Below, one piece after another: positions 2,082-13,721 of a stretch of DNA of 64,000 bases. The position numbers and the translations under genes were made by a program. The stretch lies in assembly GCF_038789205.1 (NCBI RefSeq), contig NZ_CP128355.1, positions 62,001 to 126,000 of the forward strand. Reading direction: 5' to 3'. The notes below the pieces were generated by a model. It was not told where the DNA came from and ran no database searches. It worked only from the letters and a program-made list of their open reading frames with translations. How positions within the stretch are numbered: position 1 is the stretch's first letter; the number at the start of each line of letters is the position of its first letter. This DNA is from Staphylococcus hsinchuensis (GTDB taxonomy: Bacteria; Bacillota; Bacilli; Staphylococcales; Staphylococcaceae).

Positions 2082-3284
2082 TTATTTGTTATTTGCATTT
2101 AATTCTTTTAAAAATTGTCTTTCTAACTTTTCTACCTCTGCTTGATTTTCAGCATGCCATATACAACCAAAACGCGATTTAACATCATCATCTTTATACC
2201 AATCACCGTCATAATAAGACAGAGGTAACAATACACCTCGTGCGACATATTTCTTTATTGTATTGAAGAAATGCGTGTTATCACAAGGTGCGATATAACT
2301 GTAAAACTTATGGAAACCTTGAGTTAATAACGGCTCTAATAAGAGCATACTCGTTGAACCATTTTGTCTGAAATTTAAATCGATTGCAAAGATATCCCCA
2401 TTTTTATCTAATAGCAAGTCAAAGCCTGCAACACCAAAGTAACCTTTAGAAACGCCAATTTCCATAATTTCTCTACCAGCTTGAATAACTTTTTCAGGAA
2501 CATCTATAGAATTGTGATTGCCGTTATAATGTCCATATTTGTCAGTGAGTTGCTCAGAAGTTCCGATGTATTGTATGCCTCTTTGCTCAGAGTATGCAAA
2601 TTGTACACAGTAATTTGCTACCGCTTCAATCATTTGTTCAATAATCATCGTTTGGGTTGCATCTTCAGCTTTCTTAATACGTGCTTTAGCCTTTGCTAAA
2701 TCTGTGTTGTTGTAACAAATCATCACACCATAACCACCTGCTGTTGGTAATTCATCGCCAGGTTTTAAAACGAAAGGAAAGTCCCATTCCTTAATTTTTG
2801 TTTCGAATTCCTCCATCTTTACGATTTCTCTTTTAGGTAATTGCTTAAAATTCGTCCACTCTGGTATGCGTGATTTATTATTTAACGCAACAAAAATGTC
2901 CTTGTCTAATGCGTAATGTTTTTTATTCACGACCGATTCTTCATGTATATATTGGAAATATATTTTTTTATTTTGAGTGTGTGCAATATCTTTAAGCAAA
3001 CGTTCATATGTTTGTCGATCTTCAAATGAATAAATATTTTCAGGCATATCTTTACCTATCATTTCAAATAATTGTTGGATTTTATCTGTCACACTTGCTT
3101 TATGCACAATGACGGGTAGTTGGTTTGCAATGATTAATTCACGTGCTGTTAAAAAATTAGACTGATGTTCCTCAGCTTCCAACCATGGATTCGCTAAATA
3201 AGACGGACGAGAAGAATAAACTACATTTGAATCATACAAATCACTCAATGATAATTTTGGTTGTAGTGTTTTAGGGCTACTCAT
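2082..3284 (-). CDS. ATP-grasp ligase-like protein
   Basis: A 400-residue protein with an ATP-grasp fold. The central lysine segment is FPFVLKPGDELPTAGGYGV (about residues 174-192). An 'IIEQMIE' strand follows, and the metal-binding end is 'FDLLLDKNGDIFAIDLNFR', with Asp and Asn as the expected Mg-ATP ligands. ATP-grasp enzymes join a carboxylate to an amine or thiol through an acyl phosphate. The substrate here cannot be read from the sequence. Its ATG overlaps the stop of the upstream M20 amidohydrolase by 4 bases (ATGA), with the RBS GGAG inside that gene, so the two are translationally coupled and probably act on related amide bonds. It is the last gene of this two-gene operon. Confidence 0.85.
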   Translation of the reverse strand: MSSPKTLQPKLSLSDLYDSNVVYSSRPSYLANPWLEAEEHQSNFLTARELIIANQLPVIVHKASVTDKIQQLFEMIGKDMPENIYSFEDRQTYERLLKDIAHTQNKKIYFQYIHEESVVNKKHYALDKDIFVALNNKSRIPEWTNFKQLPKREIVKMEEFETKIKEWDFPFVLKPGDELPTAGGYGVMICYNNTDLAKAKARIKKAEDATQTMIIEQMIEAVANYCVQFAYSEQRGIQYIGTSEQLTDKYGHYNGNHNSIDVPEKVIQAGREIMEIGVSKGYFGVAGFDLLLDKNGDIFAIDLNFRQNGSTSMLLLEPLLTQGFHKFYSYIAPCDNTHFFNTIKKYVARGVLLPLSYYDGDWYKDDDVKSRFGCIWHAENQAEVEKLERQFLKELNANNK

Positions 3285-4465
3285 TTTTTGTGCTCCTTCG
3301 TATATTTATATTGATCGACAATTTCATCGAACAATGGTTTATTTATTATTAGTTCAAGACCCATTAATGCCAGTATTTTTGAACCTCTGATTAATGCTTG
3401 ATCTCCTTGATGACTTGCTGCAGCTTCACGGAACCTATGTGTGTGACCTACTAAATTTCTAGAACCTATTTTGATATGCGGATGAATTGTTGGAACAACA
3501 TGACTTACATTACCTGTATCCGTTGAGCCATAACCAAAGTCATCATGACTTACATTTTCACCTAAGTCAGTCGCAAATTTTTCGAATAGTTCATCCAGTT
3601 TAGGTGTTTTAATAAATTCGTTGACTCCATTTTGAATAGGACCAAATTCGTAATCACAACCGGTTTGAATCGCTGCACCTTTGGCGATTTGACTTACTTT
3701 CGTTGTTAAAATATCTAACGCTTTACGCGATGTTGCTCTAGTATAAAAACGTGCATGTGTATAATCAGGAATAATATTTGCTGCTTGACCACCATCCAAT
3801 ATTACGCCGTGAACACGTTCAGTGCGTTTAATATGCTGTCGTAGTTGGGCAACACCATTAAAGTACGAAATCATTGCATCTAATGCGTTTTTTGCTTCAT
3901 CCGCATTTTCAGAAGCATGTGCGCTCTTACCATAAAATTTAATATCTAACACATCTACAGCTAATGTATTGATAGTAGGATAAGTTTCATTACCTGGATG
4001 TACCATTAAAGCGATATCCAAGTCGTCAATGACCCCTTCTTTAACATATGATGCTTTGGCACTCCCATTTTCACCGCCTTCTTCTGCTGGGCAACCTAAG
4101 ACAATGACTTCACCACCGATTTGGTCTATATGTTGTTTTAAAGCTATACCTGCTAATACACTCGCAGTTCCTATAATATTGTGGCCACATGCATGTCCTA
4201 AACCAGGTAAAGCATCATATTCAGCTAAATAACCAATAGTTGGCCCCGGTAGTTCAGAATCATAACGCGCTATAAAACCTGTTCCGTGACCAGCAATATC
4301 TGTTTCAACTTTAAAATCTTGCTCTATTAATTGATCAATTAATGTACGTGATGCAAATATTTCTTCGTTACCTAACTCTGGACGTTGATGAATTAAATGA
4401 CTAATATCAATATATTTATGTTTTTCACTTTCTATATAATCTAAAATACTTTGTTTTTCATTCAT
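3281..4465 (-). CDS. M20-family metal-dependent amidohydrolase
   Basis: A zinc/manganese aminoacylase or dipeptidase of the M20D type, related to AbgB, HipO and mammalian PM20D2. Visible metal-site motifs are 'AEYDALPGLGHACGHN', which supplies the His and Cys/His ligands, 'PAEEGGENGSAK' with the catalytic Glu pair, and a later 'VHPGN'. The open frame extends to a TTG at 4489, but that codon lies on the GGGGAGG ribosome-binding site (4479-4485). I therefore start at the ATG at 4465, giving 394 residues, although the 13-base spacing is long. Its stop overlaps the ATP-grasp gene start, which suggests that one enzyme makes and the other breaks an amide or peptide bond. Confidence 0.85.
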   Translation of the reverse strand: MNEKQSILDYIESEKHKYIDISHLIHQRPELGNEEIFASRTLIDQLIEQDFKVETDIAGHGTGFIARYDSELPGPTIGYLAEYDALPGLGHACGHNIIGTASVLAGIALKQHIDQIGGEVIVLGCPAEEGGENGSAKASYVKEGVIDDLDIALMVHPGNETYPTINTLAVDVLDIKFYGKSAHASENADEAKNALDAMISYFNGVAQLRQHIKRTERVHGVILDGGQAANIIPDYTHARFYTRATSRKALDILTTKVSQIAKGAAIQTGCDYEFGPIQNGVNEFIKTPKLDELFEKFATDLGENVSHDDFGYGSTDTGNVSHVVPTIHPHIKIGSRNLVGHTHRFREAAASHQGDQALIRGSKILALMGLELIINKPLFDEIVDQYKYTKEHKK

Positions 4466-4733
4466 ATTTGCAAAACTGCCTCCCCACAATCATACAACTT
4501 CTGTTACATCAATCGCTTTTACTTAATTTCCCTATATTTTTTGTATGAATTATACATATAATTTTTGTGATTACCATTTATTTTATACGGTGAAGTTCAA
4601 TCTGTCATTAATTTTTCAGAAATTTTAAAATTTTAATACTAATATACATATCATATCGACATTGTTGTGAAATTGTAAATAATTCATATGCTTGTTACAA
4701 TTATGGTAATTAAATGACTAGGAGGATATTGTT

Positions 4734-5204
4734 ATGCCAAAAATGAATGTTGAAAGTTTTAATTTAGACCATACAAAAGTAGTTGCACCGTTTGTACGTC
4801 TAGCTGGGAAAATGGAAGGTGCAAATGGAGATGTTATTCATAAATACGATATCCGTTTCAAACAGCCAAATAAAGAACATATGGAAATGCCTGGATTACA
4901 TTCTTTAGAGCATTTAATGGCTGAAAATATTAGAAACCATTCAGATAAAATTGTAGATATTAGCCCTATGGGTTGCCAAACAGGTTTTTATGTATCTTTC
5001 ATTAACCATGATGATTATGAAGATGTGTTAAATATAATTGAACAAACTTTACAAGATGTCTTAAATGCAGAAGAAGTACCAGCTTGTAATGAAGTTCAAT
5101 GTGGATGGGCAGCAAGTCATTCATTAGAAGGTGCAAAAGAAATCGCACAAGCTTTCTTAGATAAAAAAGCACAATGGGACGACATTTACGGCGAAGGTAA
5201 ATAA
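4734..5204 (+). CDS. luxS: S-ribosylhomocysteine lyase LuxS
   Basis: A 156-residue cytoplasmic metalloenzyme. It cleaves S-ribosylhomocysteine to homocysteine and the autoinducer-2 precursor DPD, closing the activated methyl cycle. The metal ligands are visible: His56 and His60 in HSLEH, and Cys123 in 'EVQCGWA'. The catalytic Glu59 is in the same HSLEH, and the catalytic Cys81 is in 'GCQTGFY'. Length and order match the family. RBS AGGAGG sits 9 bases before the ATG. The gene is monocistronic, with a long AT-rich upstream region (4490-4733) and a strong terminator. No pfs or sahH homologue is adjacent. Confidence 0.97.
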
Positions 5205-5228
5205 TAACTTATATCACAATATTTAAAA

Positions 5229-5271
5229 GCCCCACTGATAGATTTCAATAAATACTATCAGTGGGGTTTAT
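5229..5271 (+). terminator. Terminator after luxS
   Basis: A 12-bp perfect stem, CCCCACTGATAG (5230-5241) and CTATCAGTGGGG (5255-5266), is followed by TTTATTTTT. Confidence 0.88.
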
Positions 5272-5301
5272 TTTTATAGCATTTTCCCATAGAAAAAATA
5301 A

Positions 5302-5655
5302 TTATAATTTATGAATTATTCTAATTAATACAAATTGTAATGGTAACCTCGCATATAATAACCACGCAGGTAATTGCTTACCACCTAAAGGTATATTTTT
5401 TCGTGCCATATATACATTTGCAGGTAATACTGCCCATAGAAATGCACTTATTGCTCTTTTTAAACAAGTTGTAGGGCGTTGTTTTATCAATAATCCCCCG
5501 AAGATGATTTCAATTACACCTGTGATGAGTACCGCTGTTTTACGTAAAGGTAAATAGTCAGGAACAATCTTTCTAAAGCTAGGTTCATCTTTAAAATGTA
5601 ACACCCCTGCTATCGTAAACATTAAGCCGAGCAATATTCTAATTAAATGTTTCAC
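5302..5655 (-). CDS. DoxX-family membrane protein
   Basis: A 117-residue integral membrane protein with about four hydrophobic helices (residues about 3-20, 43-60, 66-85 and 96-114). The '[14 protein letters not shown]' opening and 'R.IVPDYLP' loop are typical of DoxX/DoxD-like small membrane proteins. Their function is poorly defined; some are linked to redox or thiosulfate chemistry. Translation starts at GTG in the GTGA overlap with the deoB stop, so it is coupled to the deoxynucleoside operon as its last gene. No link to nucleoside catabolism is known. Confidence 0.7.
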
Positions 5656-6839
5656 TTTTCAATACCCATTTCCTTTAAGTAACTTCTACCAAACTTTGGT
5701 AATGGTACATCAAAGTTATCTGCAATTGTGGCACCAATAGAACTGAATGTATTATCTGTTGTTAAGCCATGATATTCATTAATCTTAGGGCTGAACATTA
5801 ACACTGGAATATATTCACGTGTATGATCTGTTCCTTCTGCTGTTGGATCATTACCGTGATCGGCTGTAATAATTACGAGATCGTCCTCTTGTAAGTGATC
5901 TATTAATTCTGGTAAACGCTCATCAAAGTCTTTAAGTGCTTGTGCATAACCTGCTTTATCTCTACGGTGTCCATATTGCGCATCAAAATCAACAAGATTT
6001 AAAAAGCTTAAGCCTTTAAAATCTCGTTTGACAGTATCGATTAATTTATCCATACCGTCCATGTTATTTTTAGTACGAACCGCTTCAGTAATACCTTCTC
6101 CATCATAAATATCATTAATCTTACCTAAAGCAATCACATCATAATCATGATCTTTAAGTTCATTCATGACCGTTCTACCGAAAGGCTTTAATGCATAATC
6201 ATGACGGTTTGGTGTACGTGTAAAGTTACCAGGTTCCCCGACATAAGGGCGTGCAATAATACGACCAATTAAATATTCTGGATCTTTCGTTAGTTCTCGA
6301 ACCTTTTCACATATATCATATAATTCTTCTAAAGGTATAATATCTTCATGCGCTGCAATCTGTAATACTGGATCAGCAGAAGTGTAGACGATTAAATCAC
6401 CTGTTTTCATTTGATGTTCGCCCCACTCATCAATGATCTGAGTACCAGAGGCCGGTCGATTCGCTACGACCTTTCTTCCTGTAATGCTTTCAATTTCTTT
6501 AACTAATTTCTCAGGAAAACCTTCAGGATACACTTTAAATGGTTGCATGATATTTAATCCCATTATTTCCCAATGACCTGTCATCGTATCTTTACCTACA
6601 GAAGCTTCACTCATTTTCGTGTAAAACGCATGAGGTGTATCTACTTGTTCTATGACAGGAAGTGGCTCTATATTACCTAGGCCTAGATTTTGTAAGTTTG
6701 GTAATGATTGTTCAAAACCTTCTAACGTATGCTTTAATGTATGACTTCCTTCATCATTAAACGCTTTCGCATCAGGCCCTTCACCTATTCCTACTGAATC
6801 CATTACGATTAAATGTACTCTATTAAATGGTTGAGTCAT
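5652..6839 (-). CDS. deoB: Phosphopentomutase
   Basis: Interconverts (deoxy)ribose-1-phosphate and -5-phosphate, linking nucleoside phosphorolysis to DeoC and the pentose phosphate pathway. It is an alkaline-phosphatase-superfamily metalloenzyme. '[17 protein letters not shown]' gives the first metal Asp, '[10 protein letters not shown]' carries the phosphorylated Thr, and 'ITADHGNDP' and '[10 protein letters not shown]' give the second metal site. The frame can extend to a GTG at 6848, but GGAG lies 8 bases before the ATG at 6839 (MTQPFNR...), so I start there (395 residues, close to the usual about 390). It sits 11 bases after pdp in a deoC-pdp-deoB-doxX operon. Confidence 0.95.
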
Positions 6840-11371: not shown

Positions 11372-11755
11372 TTAGTCTATAAAAAATGATTTCTCATAAT
11401 CATTTGGTTGATGCCAGTGTGTTTTCCACATATGGTTACGGTTATCTGCAAATAATTGATAACCAAAGTCTCTTAATATTTTCGGTGTTAATTTGAGTAA
11501 CACACCTAACCATTTATATTGCGTTAAAGAAGTGATGAGTGTTGCAATCGCGTCAGATTTGAATTCTAAATGTTCACCTTCTTGTAAGATGACGCTGTCG
11601 TATCGTCTCGCTTCTGGATAATTTTCACGTAATTGTTCAGCCACATCTCCTTGCAATTTTGCAAATTCATAGCGTGTTGATAAACCGTTTTGAATTAACC
11701 AAATCGCATAGTTGTAGCAGTATACACAATTTGCATCATAATAAATAATAGGCAT
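11372..11755 (-). CDS. DCC-family (DUF393) thiol-redox-like protein
   Basis: A 127-residue protein of the DUF393 family, named for its conserved Asp-Cys-Cys motif. It reads 'YYDANCVYCYNYAIWLI' at residues 5-21, with a CxxC pair resembling a thioredoxin-type active site, followed by an 'FAKLQGD' strand and 'YDSVILQEG'. The C-terminal 'PKILRDFGYQLFADNR' matches the family ending. Function is uncharacterised; thiol-disulfide oxidoreductase activity is only predicted. It is 20 bp upstream of rbsK on the same strand, probably in one transcript. AAAGGAG precedes the ATG. Confidence 0.82.
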   Translation of the reverse strand: MPIIYYDANCVYCYNYAIWLIQNGLSTRYEFAKLQGDVAEQLRENYPEARRYDSVILQEGEHLEFKSDAIATLITSLTQYKWLGVLLKLTPKILRDFGYQLFADNRNHMWKTHWHQPNDYEKSFFID

Positions 11756-11910: not shown

Positions 11911-11950
11911 AAAAAAAGATGGTTACTACTTTTTCAGTAGTAACCACCTT
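11911..11950 (-). terminator. Terminator after the EVE-domain gene
   Basis: The stem TGGTTACTACT / AGTAGTAACCA (11920-11930 with 11936-11946) is followed on the minus strand by a run of seven T. It ends the gene at 11994-13376. Confidence 0.87.
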
Positions 11951-11993: not shown

Positions 11994-13376
11994 TTATTTT
12001 AAAACATCGTCTTTTTTAACTTTTACAATTCTAGTATATTTAAGAAATTGTTCAGTATATTTTTGTTTAATTTCATTAAGCTCATCATAAGTAATTCCAA
12101 TAATGTGCCAACTCGGATTAAAGTGATAATATGAATCTTTATGGCGAGACCATTTAACCATATTACCTTCGCGATTATATCGAGGCATCGTCATCTCATA
12201 ACCTTCCAACACGTTTATATACGTTTGGAAAATATCAGGATCCACCCGATTAAAATTATCGATGACTAAATAACGTTTATCACTTTTTGGCATTAAATTC
12301 GTTATAAAGCCTTCTCTAAAATACAACGCTCCTGTTTCATTAGGTAAATATTTACCATAAAGCATATCTTCGGAAAAATCAGGATGCCCTGTTGTAAATA
12401 CAGGATTAGCATTTGCTTTTTGTAATAAGTCTTCGGCTGCACTTAAACCATTGCCTTTATCAGCGACTAATAAGATGAATGGCTTTAAATTATCGTCCGA
12501 TTCTTCTATTATCTCATTGCTTTTCACCGCTTCAAATTGAGGCTTAATACCACCATCGTTGTCACTCATTTCAAGAATTGCTTGGTATTGCTTTTTCGAC
12601 ATACTTGCAATGGCTTGTTTTGTATTTTCTTGTAAAAAGTATAAGTTTTTTAACTTCGGATGTTTATTCAACGTACTTAGAGACACCGGTGTAATTTCAT
12701 TTTTGAAATATACTTCAATTGCTGTACTATTTGTGCGCCCTGGAATAGGCGGCTTTTCATGAATATGCTTAGTAACCTCTCCTATACCTATAACAGATTG
12801 ATCTTTGTGTCGGTTGTAGAATACGAGCTGATCACCCATTTCCAATTGCGTATAAAAATGGTACCCATTACGTTTAATTCCATTGTATGTATGCGTAAAT
12901 AAAGTATGATAAGAATCTGGTTTGAATTCTTCAGTTTCTGAAATAAAGAAATGTCTCGGTATCGTCATTTCACCTTTACCTAAACTTAAAATCAGATTAA
13001 ACTCATCTTCGCTTATTTGATTAAATAGTGTTTCTTTCATTTGGCTCATTCTGAATTCTAACTTTTCACTTCTTTTTAAATATTCCGCAGTAAGTGGTTT
13101 AAGTTCTTCTAATAATTCAAAATGAACGCGTATCTTATTTTGCGCACCAGTTTGAACACTTGTAATTTCTCCGTATCCTAATAATCCAGTGTCCATTTGT
13201 ACTTGATAGAAAACGACACGATCTCCAACTTTAGCTTGTTTAAAAGCACGGAAACCTTGTGATGGATTAAATTGTGCACCAGATTCAAACAGGGTTGTTT
13301 GACCTACTAATGGCTCATTGTGATTCCATCGGTTATAACCGCAATTCAACCAAAAATATCTTGTTTCCTCTGACAT
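11994..13376 (-). CDS. Double-EVE protein with degenerate McrB-like AAA domain
   Basis: A 460-residue protein starting at the ATG at 13376, behind AAGGAG; the frame could extend to 13424 without an RBS. Residues about 4-130 (RYFWLNCGYNRWNH...GDRVVFYQ...GYGEI) and 142-270 (RHFFISE...GDQLVFYNR...GIGEV) look like two EVE/PUA-like modules, which in other proteins read modified bases. Residues about 298-455 align by eye with the McrB-type AAA core: 'HPDFSEDMLYGKY' (compare 'HPSYSYEDFIEG'), a Walker-B-like 'YLVIDNFNRVDPDIFQ' and a sensor-strand 'WHIIGITY'. The Walker A is lost (VADKGNGLSA) and DE is DN, so ATP hydrolysis is unlikely. No mcrC or nuclease is adjacent. Conserved in staphylococci as I recall. 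Its role is unknown. Confidence 0.75.
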   Translation of the reverse strand: MSEETRYFWLNCGYNRWNHNEPLVGQTTLFESGAQFNPSQGFRAFKQAKVGDRVVFYQVQMDTGLLGYGEITSVQTGAQNKIRVHFELLEELKPLTAEYLKRSEKLEFRMSQMKETLFNQISEDEFNLILSLGKGEMTIPRHFFISETEEFKPDSYHTLFTHTYNGIKRNGYHFYTQLEMGDQLVFYNRHKDQSVIGIGEVTKHIHEKPPIPGRTNSTAIEVYFKNEITPVSLSTLNKHPKLKNLYFLQENTKQAIASMSKKQYQAILEMSDNDGGIKPQFEAVKSNEIIEESDDNLKPFILLVADKGNGLSAAEDLLQKANANPVFTTGHPDFSEDMLYGKYLPNETGALYFREGFITNLMPKSDKRYLVIDNFNRVDPDIFQTYINVLEGYEMTMPRYNREGNMVKWSRHKDSYYHFNPSWHIIGITYDELNEIKQKYTEQFLKYTRIVKVKKDDVLK

Positions 13377-13490: not shown

Positions 13491-13721
13491 TTAATGTGCA
13501 ACCGTAAATGCACCTAAAAGCGGCATTAAATTGATTAAAATCCCTCCGAATTTCAACATTCCACTTATTTCCTTATTAGGAATCGTAACGACTGTAGCGA
13601 TAATTCCAATCACCGCAATAATCATTGGTATTGCAAGCGTTGGATATTGTGGCATTTTCAGGAAAATTCCTGCCCCAGCAAGTAAACCACATATTAATGC
13701 AACATATAAAAATTTGTACAC
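13491..13721 (-). CDS. Small membrane protein, unknown function
   Basis: A 76-residue very hydrophobic protein with about three predicted helices (residues 2-20, 27-46 and 56-74) and short loops containing 'KMPQYP' and 'PNKEISG'. GTG start, with AGGAG 9 bases upstream. It lies between manA and the EVE-domain gene on the same strand (gap of 22 bp to manA). I do not recognise a family; it may be a staphylococcal-specific small membrane protein. Confidence 0.6.
   Translation of the reverse strand: MYKFLYVALICGLLAGAGIFLKMPQYPTLAIPMIIAVIGIIATVVTIPNKEISGMLKFGGILINLMPLLGAFTVAH

Follow-up and report, generated by a model that had tools for sequence, protein, structure and literature searches.

The closest described relative of the locus studied here is PcdA of Staphylococcus aureus, an early division protein whose partners are FtsZ and DivIVA and which makes division planes orthogonal (PMC10602043). 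We compared it with a gene of Staphylococcus hsinchuensis located at 11994..13376 in a 64,000-nucleotide stretch of contig NZ_CP128355.1 (positions 62,001 to 126,000), which we call the window. The S. aureus gene, sausa300_2094, was named pcdA in a 2023 preprint that describes an EVE-EVE-McrB protein with a degraded Walker A, a lost Walker B Glu, no lid and no McrC (PMC10602043). The journal version followed in 2024 (Nature Microbiology, doi 10.1038/s41564-024-01821-8), according to the reference lists of two reviews, PMC12272431 and PMC12203958, whose PcdA passages restate the division role.

A ring of PcdA marks the place where an S. aureus cell will divide next, in many cells ahead of FtsZ, and DivIVA helps to redeploy the protein there (PMC10602043). 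It binds unpolymerised FtsZ with ATP, and also FtsZ polymers (PMC10602043; the ATP detail is also found in the PcdA passages of PMC12203958). Cells deleted for pcdA show a mean angle of 70 instead of 82 degrees between planes, with a wider spread (PMC10602043).

We conclude with high confidence that the window gene is the ortholog of PcdA (SAUSA300_2094), a division-site selection protein probably derived from an EVE-McrB restriction ATPase. Its product keeps 10 of the 11 residues mutated in S. aureus (PMC10602043), the exception being K313, which is replaced by Ser312. All 11 (R16, E31, Y57, Q60, K114, Y187, K253, K313, D374, T430 and R450) stand at the same numbers in protein P0034, with which the window protein shares 77 % identity (among the matches listed, 120 of 145). 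The same is true of the protein of S. schweitzeri (locus L076), a close relative of S. aureus, and three of the four published pcdA flank primers find a site beside its gene with 2-3 mismatches of 22. The window protein itself is 100 % identical to that of Staphylococcus sp. Marseille-Q5304.

An earlier note on this DNA, made from the sequence alone, had proposed the gene as a candidate for an undescribed system. This did not hold, as PcdA has already been described with the same layout and the same motif losses (PMC10602043). The gene is known, and the addition made here is the comparative residue data: no residue comparison across genera, Macrococcus included, is given in the Results or Discussion of PMC10602043 or in the PcdA passages of PMC12203958. 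In the relevant part of PMC10914604, SAOUHSC_02383 appears with unknown function among the division or envelope hits of a transposon screen; this is presumably the same gene as pcdA, because the passage of PMC11265419 on this locus calls it an EVE-domain protein. A table in PMC11265419 labels SAOUHSC_02383 as facZ. The corresponding passages of the FacZ paper (PMC10914604) have facZ as SAOUHSC_01855, with SAOUHSC_02383 separate, and the label looks like a mislabel of pcdA.

All three domains of the product (EVE, EVE and AAA+ core) are backed by profiles and AlphaFold2 models, and they agree with the single-chain layout of PcdA, which has a length of about 457 amino acids. The EVE domains match Pfam and take an EVE/PUA-like fold in the fold comparison, and an AAA fold was found for the core, in line with the two EVE modules and the McrB-like segment that the earlier note had described; the residue ranges are given in Table 1. 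Its claim that Walker A and the DE pair are lost extends to the whole family, with the Walker A pattern G....GK[ST] in 0/108 and DE in 0/108 Staphylococcaceae proteins. The best PDB sequence match of the product is weak (E 0.012), and bacteriorhodopsin matches in the same search (E 0.077 and worse) were taken as chance. A PADLOC match, PDC-S02 (1.1e-4), spans residues 170-300, mostly EVE-2, and no defence system was inferred from it.

The gene is present once in 84/84 Staphylococcus genomes and in 108/108 Staphylococcaceae genomes from five genera, with a frame open over at least 300 codons in every case. The 108 proteins comprise 84 from Staphylococcus, 8 from Mammaliicoccus and 16 of Macrococcus type, the latter two labels being derived partly from identity to named proteins (best 120 of 145 and best 120 of 162 matches). 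No PcdA match at E up to 0.001 was found in 48 of 49 other genomes of the order, and the weak match in the remaining one (1.5e-5) is an EVE-McrBC system discussed below. The core-genome location proposed earlier is borne out. No family genome searched has lost the gene, and in Staphylococcus its AAA core shows purifying selection.

To describe this selection we use the ratio of nonsynonymous to synonymous differences (pN/pS) in matched pairs. In Staphylococcus (295 of 3486 pairs), EVE-1 has a value of 0.134, EVE-2 of 0.161, the linker of 0.522 and the AAA core of 0.122. The same four regions give 0.089, 0.108, 0.299 and 0.049 in Mammaliicoccus (16 of 28 pairs) and 0.070, 0.119, 0.542 and 0.206 in the Macrococcus-type group, where the pairs are few (5 of 120). 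These ratios are rough because pairs outside a whole-gene dS (synonymous divergence) of 0.05-1.5 were dropped and pS is high. They supersede earlier dN/dS medians from unmatched Staphylococcus pairs (EVE-1 0.050, EVE-2 0.036, linker 0.751, AAA 0.024). In Staphylococcus the degenerate AAA core is under purifying selection, as constrained as the EVE domains, and is not decaying freely. Loss of Walker A, the Walker B Glu, the lid and mcrC would suit an EVE-McrBC restriction system that has lost its function and is in decay, but the frame open in all 108 genomes, the low pN/pS of the Staphylococcus AAA core compared to the linker and the published S. aureus deletion phenotypes (PMC10602043) leave this explanation with a negligible probability.

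Since the window protein is an ortholog, and since residues and gene order are conserved, we infer that it acts like S. aureus PcdA. Following the steps published for that species, DivIVA would bring PcdA to the plane of the coming division, where PcdA would multimerise via its degenerate AAA+ domain and its EVE-1 face would recruit unpolymerised FtsZ in an ATP-dependent manner, so that the new FtsZ ring would form roughly perpendicular to the previous one. The earlier note had seen in the AAA part a dead ATPase, a scaffold instead of a motor. The scaffold half holds in part, since FtsZ is recruited by PcdA. "Dead" is too strong: the purified S. aureus protein has a weak hydrolytic activity of about 0.9 per minute on ATP and GTP, and its function suffers when D374, T430 or R450 is changed (PMC10602043).

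Within EVE-1, R16, Y57 and Q60 are invariant in 108/108 proteins, and position 31 holds E in 92 and D in the other 16. The note had also suggested that the protein works alone in reading modified DNA or RNA, its AAA part serving as a scaffold. Against this, the tested residues of the EVE pocket are not all conserved: Y57 is kept throughout, but the others change in some genera, K114 being T or S and Y187 being L in 8/8 Mammaliicoccus proteins and K253 being N in 16/16 Macrococcus-type proteins (as aligned). In addition, the published partners are FtsZ and DivIVA, and PcdA localises normally in anucleate S. aureus cells (PMC10602043). A reader role is without support and we regard it as very improbable.

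Several observations weigh against the identification with PcdA and its published model. The link to S. aureus PcdA was made through P0034 and S. schweitzeri and not through an S. aureus sequence under its own name, and the fourth published flank primer has no match at S. schweitzeri pcdA. The data on FtsZ and DivIVA binding, hydrolysis and phenotype come from S. aureus only. K313 is K in 67/84 Staphylococcus, 8/8 Mammaliicoccus and 2/16 Macrococcus-type proteins, and Ser in the window species. At D374, 94 of the 108 proteins have D and the remaining 14, all of Macrococcus type (14/16), have E, and R450 is R in 92/108 and K in 16/16 Macrococcus-type proteins. T430 is T in 100/108 and C in the 8 Mammaliicoccus proteins. 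Because K313, D374 and R450 vary among genera, the nucleotide-switch part of the PcdA model may not hold family-wide. Finally, descent of the AAA core from McrB is only narrowly favoured over NorQ, and our data agree with the published assignment without proving it.

The variation across genera agrees with the published observation that K313A disturbs localisation only modestly in S. aureus (PMC10602043) and suggests, as far as aligned residues can tell, that genera may differ in how they use nucleotides. Invariant positions in the Macrococcus-type group number 69/138 in EVE-1, 52/134 in EVE-2 and 19/160 in the AAA core. Judging by the alignment, the AAA core is eroded further in these 16 genomes, single eroded positions being less certainly aligned; the C-terminal parts of this group and of the other group are homologous (hhalign 7.2e-16, probability 98.6 %). 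Alignment A2 was built from 37 proteins. We put forward tentatively, and as rather doubtful, the idea that the EVE tandem is the conserved heart of the protein and its FtsZ platform, with the AAA switch a dispensable relic lost altogether in Macrococcus-type lineages, where FtsZ would be placed without nucleotide control. The residue data make a testable addition to the PcdA model, in which EVE-1 R16, Y57 and Q60 are universal in the family and K313 is not, nor are D374 and R450 in the Macrococcus-type group. Which residues are universal and which vary bears on whether division-plane choice needs nucleotide hydrolysis.

We addressed the descent of the AAA core by fold and profile comparison with 28 of 31 McrB loci tried, 22 of 26 MoxR loci, 5 NorQ-like sequences that contain one gene twice (L172 and L241) and 6 of 7 other AAA controls, each control being one sequence. 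McrB leads the fold comparison by about 1 Z. The Foldseek list is headed by two MCM chains with a root mean square deviation above 20, McrB 6ut3 being third, and was not used for ranking. Profiles of the Staphylococcus-Mammaliicoccus rows give McrB 4.1e-4 (probability 35 %) and MoxR 0.033. With all 108 rows the values are McrB 0.010, MoxR 0.012, NorQ 0.019 and an unrelated control 0.021, and the Macrococcus-type rows alone show no clear AAA match (McrB 0.094, unrelated control 0.12). That the protein has the same function but an AAA domain from a MoxR/NorQ or midasin-like ATPase instead of McrB we consider improbable. A PDB profile search found midasin alone among AAA+ chains. Midasin was the best match neither in the fold comparison nor in the profile comparison of the Staphylococcus-Mammaliicoccus rows and was not retained as the closest relative.

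The features of the locus are collected in Table 1.

Table 1. Features of the pcdA locus in the window (residue numbers are those of the window protein unless stated)
Feature	Position	Strand	Remarks
pcdA ortholog (very probable)	11994..13376	-	open reading frame, 460 amino acids plus stop; one copy in 84/84 Staphylococcus genomes; published residues matched in relatives
EVE-1	12963..13376	-	residues 1-138; carries FtsZ-facing R16, E31, Q60 and pocket Y57, K114 (published as modelled and mutated)
EVE-2	12555..12962	-	residues 139-274
Linker, disordered and fast-evolving	12489..12554	-	residues 275-296; AlphaFold2 confidence (pLDDT) <50 at 275-294; pN/pS 0.522 in Staphylococcus
Degenerate McrB-like AAA+ core, without lid	11997..12488	-	residues 297-460
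Eroded Walker A	12423..12476	-	residues 301-318; S312 at position of S. aureus K313
Walker B strand YLVIDN	12255..12272	-	D373, equivalent to S. aureus D374, retained; no Glu
Sensor-1 strand WHIIG	12096..12110	-	T429 comes after it, equivalent to S. aureus T430
Terminator-like hairpin directly 3' of pcdA	11916..11950	-	15-pair stem, then T run
Ribosome binding site AAGGAG	13389-13384	-	by eye, 5' of pcdA
Possible promoter	TATAAT 13419-13414; weak TTGTAG 13442-13437	-	by eye
DCC1-like thiol-disulfide oxidoreductase gene	11372-11755	-	next downstream of pcdA
76-amino-acid small hydrophobic protein	13491-13721	-	directly upstream of pcdA

Terminator-like sites number 3 in the whole stretch compared to 1.6 expected from shuffles. 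The possible promoter was not listed by the promoter scan, whose sites are no more frequent than in shuffles. The oxidoreductase gene is next downstream of pcdA in 70/71 Staphylococcus loci (a set that holds some species twice and omits loci with short flanks), and the hydrophobic protein, which matches no Pfam family even at a cut-off of E 10, adjoins in 67/71; manA is the next gene detected on that side in the other 4. Of 12 window neighbours tested, none lies near pcdA in the 16 Macrococcus-type loci, each of 4-7 kb, and in Mammaliicoccus (flanks of about 1.5 kb) manA alone does so, in 1/8 loci. In two Macrococcus-type loci (L095 and L110) pcdA adjoins glycosyltransferase-like genes, as judged by eye, unlike the Staphylococcus setting. 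The earlier note was right that no mcrC or nuclease is adjacent: McrC (PF10117) has no match in the genome of the window species, and Pfam reveals no nuclease among the three genes scanned beside pcdA.

One genome of the order outside the family carries, at 2476-5933 of locus L181, a true EVE-McrB protein of 802 amino acids with Walker A GPPGVGKT and an adjacent McrC. Its EVE domain matches EVE-1 of the window protein at 2.4e-9 with 31 % identity, a direct sequence link from PcdA to restriction systems. L181 is a useful ancestor-like comparator.

The window gene, which looks like an orphan restriction reader, is an already described case, a cell-division protein that probably began as a defence ATPase. 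THYN1, whose structure has been solved with 5-methylcytosine DNA, and the bacterial EVE proteins 2eve, 2gbs and 1zce share the EVE/PUA-like fold with PcdA. Among midasin, NorQ, CbbQ and MoxR, the MoxR and NorQ-like relatives compared keep a Walker A (GVGKT, GSGKT) whereas PcdA has none. EVE-McrBC (L181) resembles PcdA in joining EVE and AAA+ in one chain but has GPPGVGKT, IIDEINR, 122 residues past the sensor and an adjacent McrC, all four of which PcdA lacks. The likeness to S. aureus PcdA covers the EVE-EVE-AAA order, the lost Walker A and Walker B Glu, the missing lid and the retained Mg-binding Asp, sensor Thr, Arg and FtsZ-facing residues, the difference being the Walker A remnant lysine K313, which is Ser312 in the window protein.
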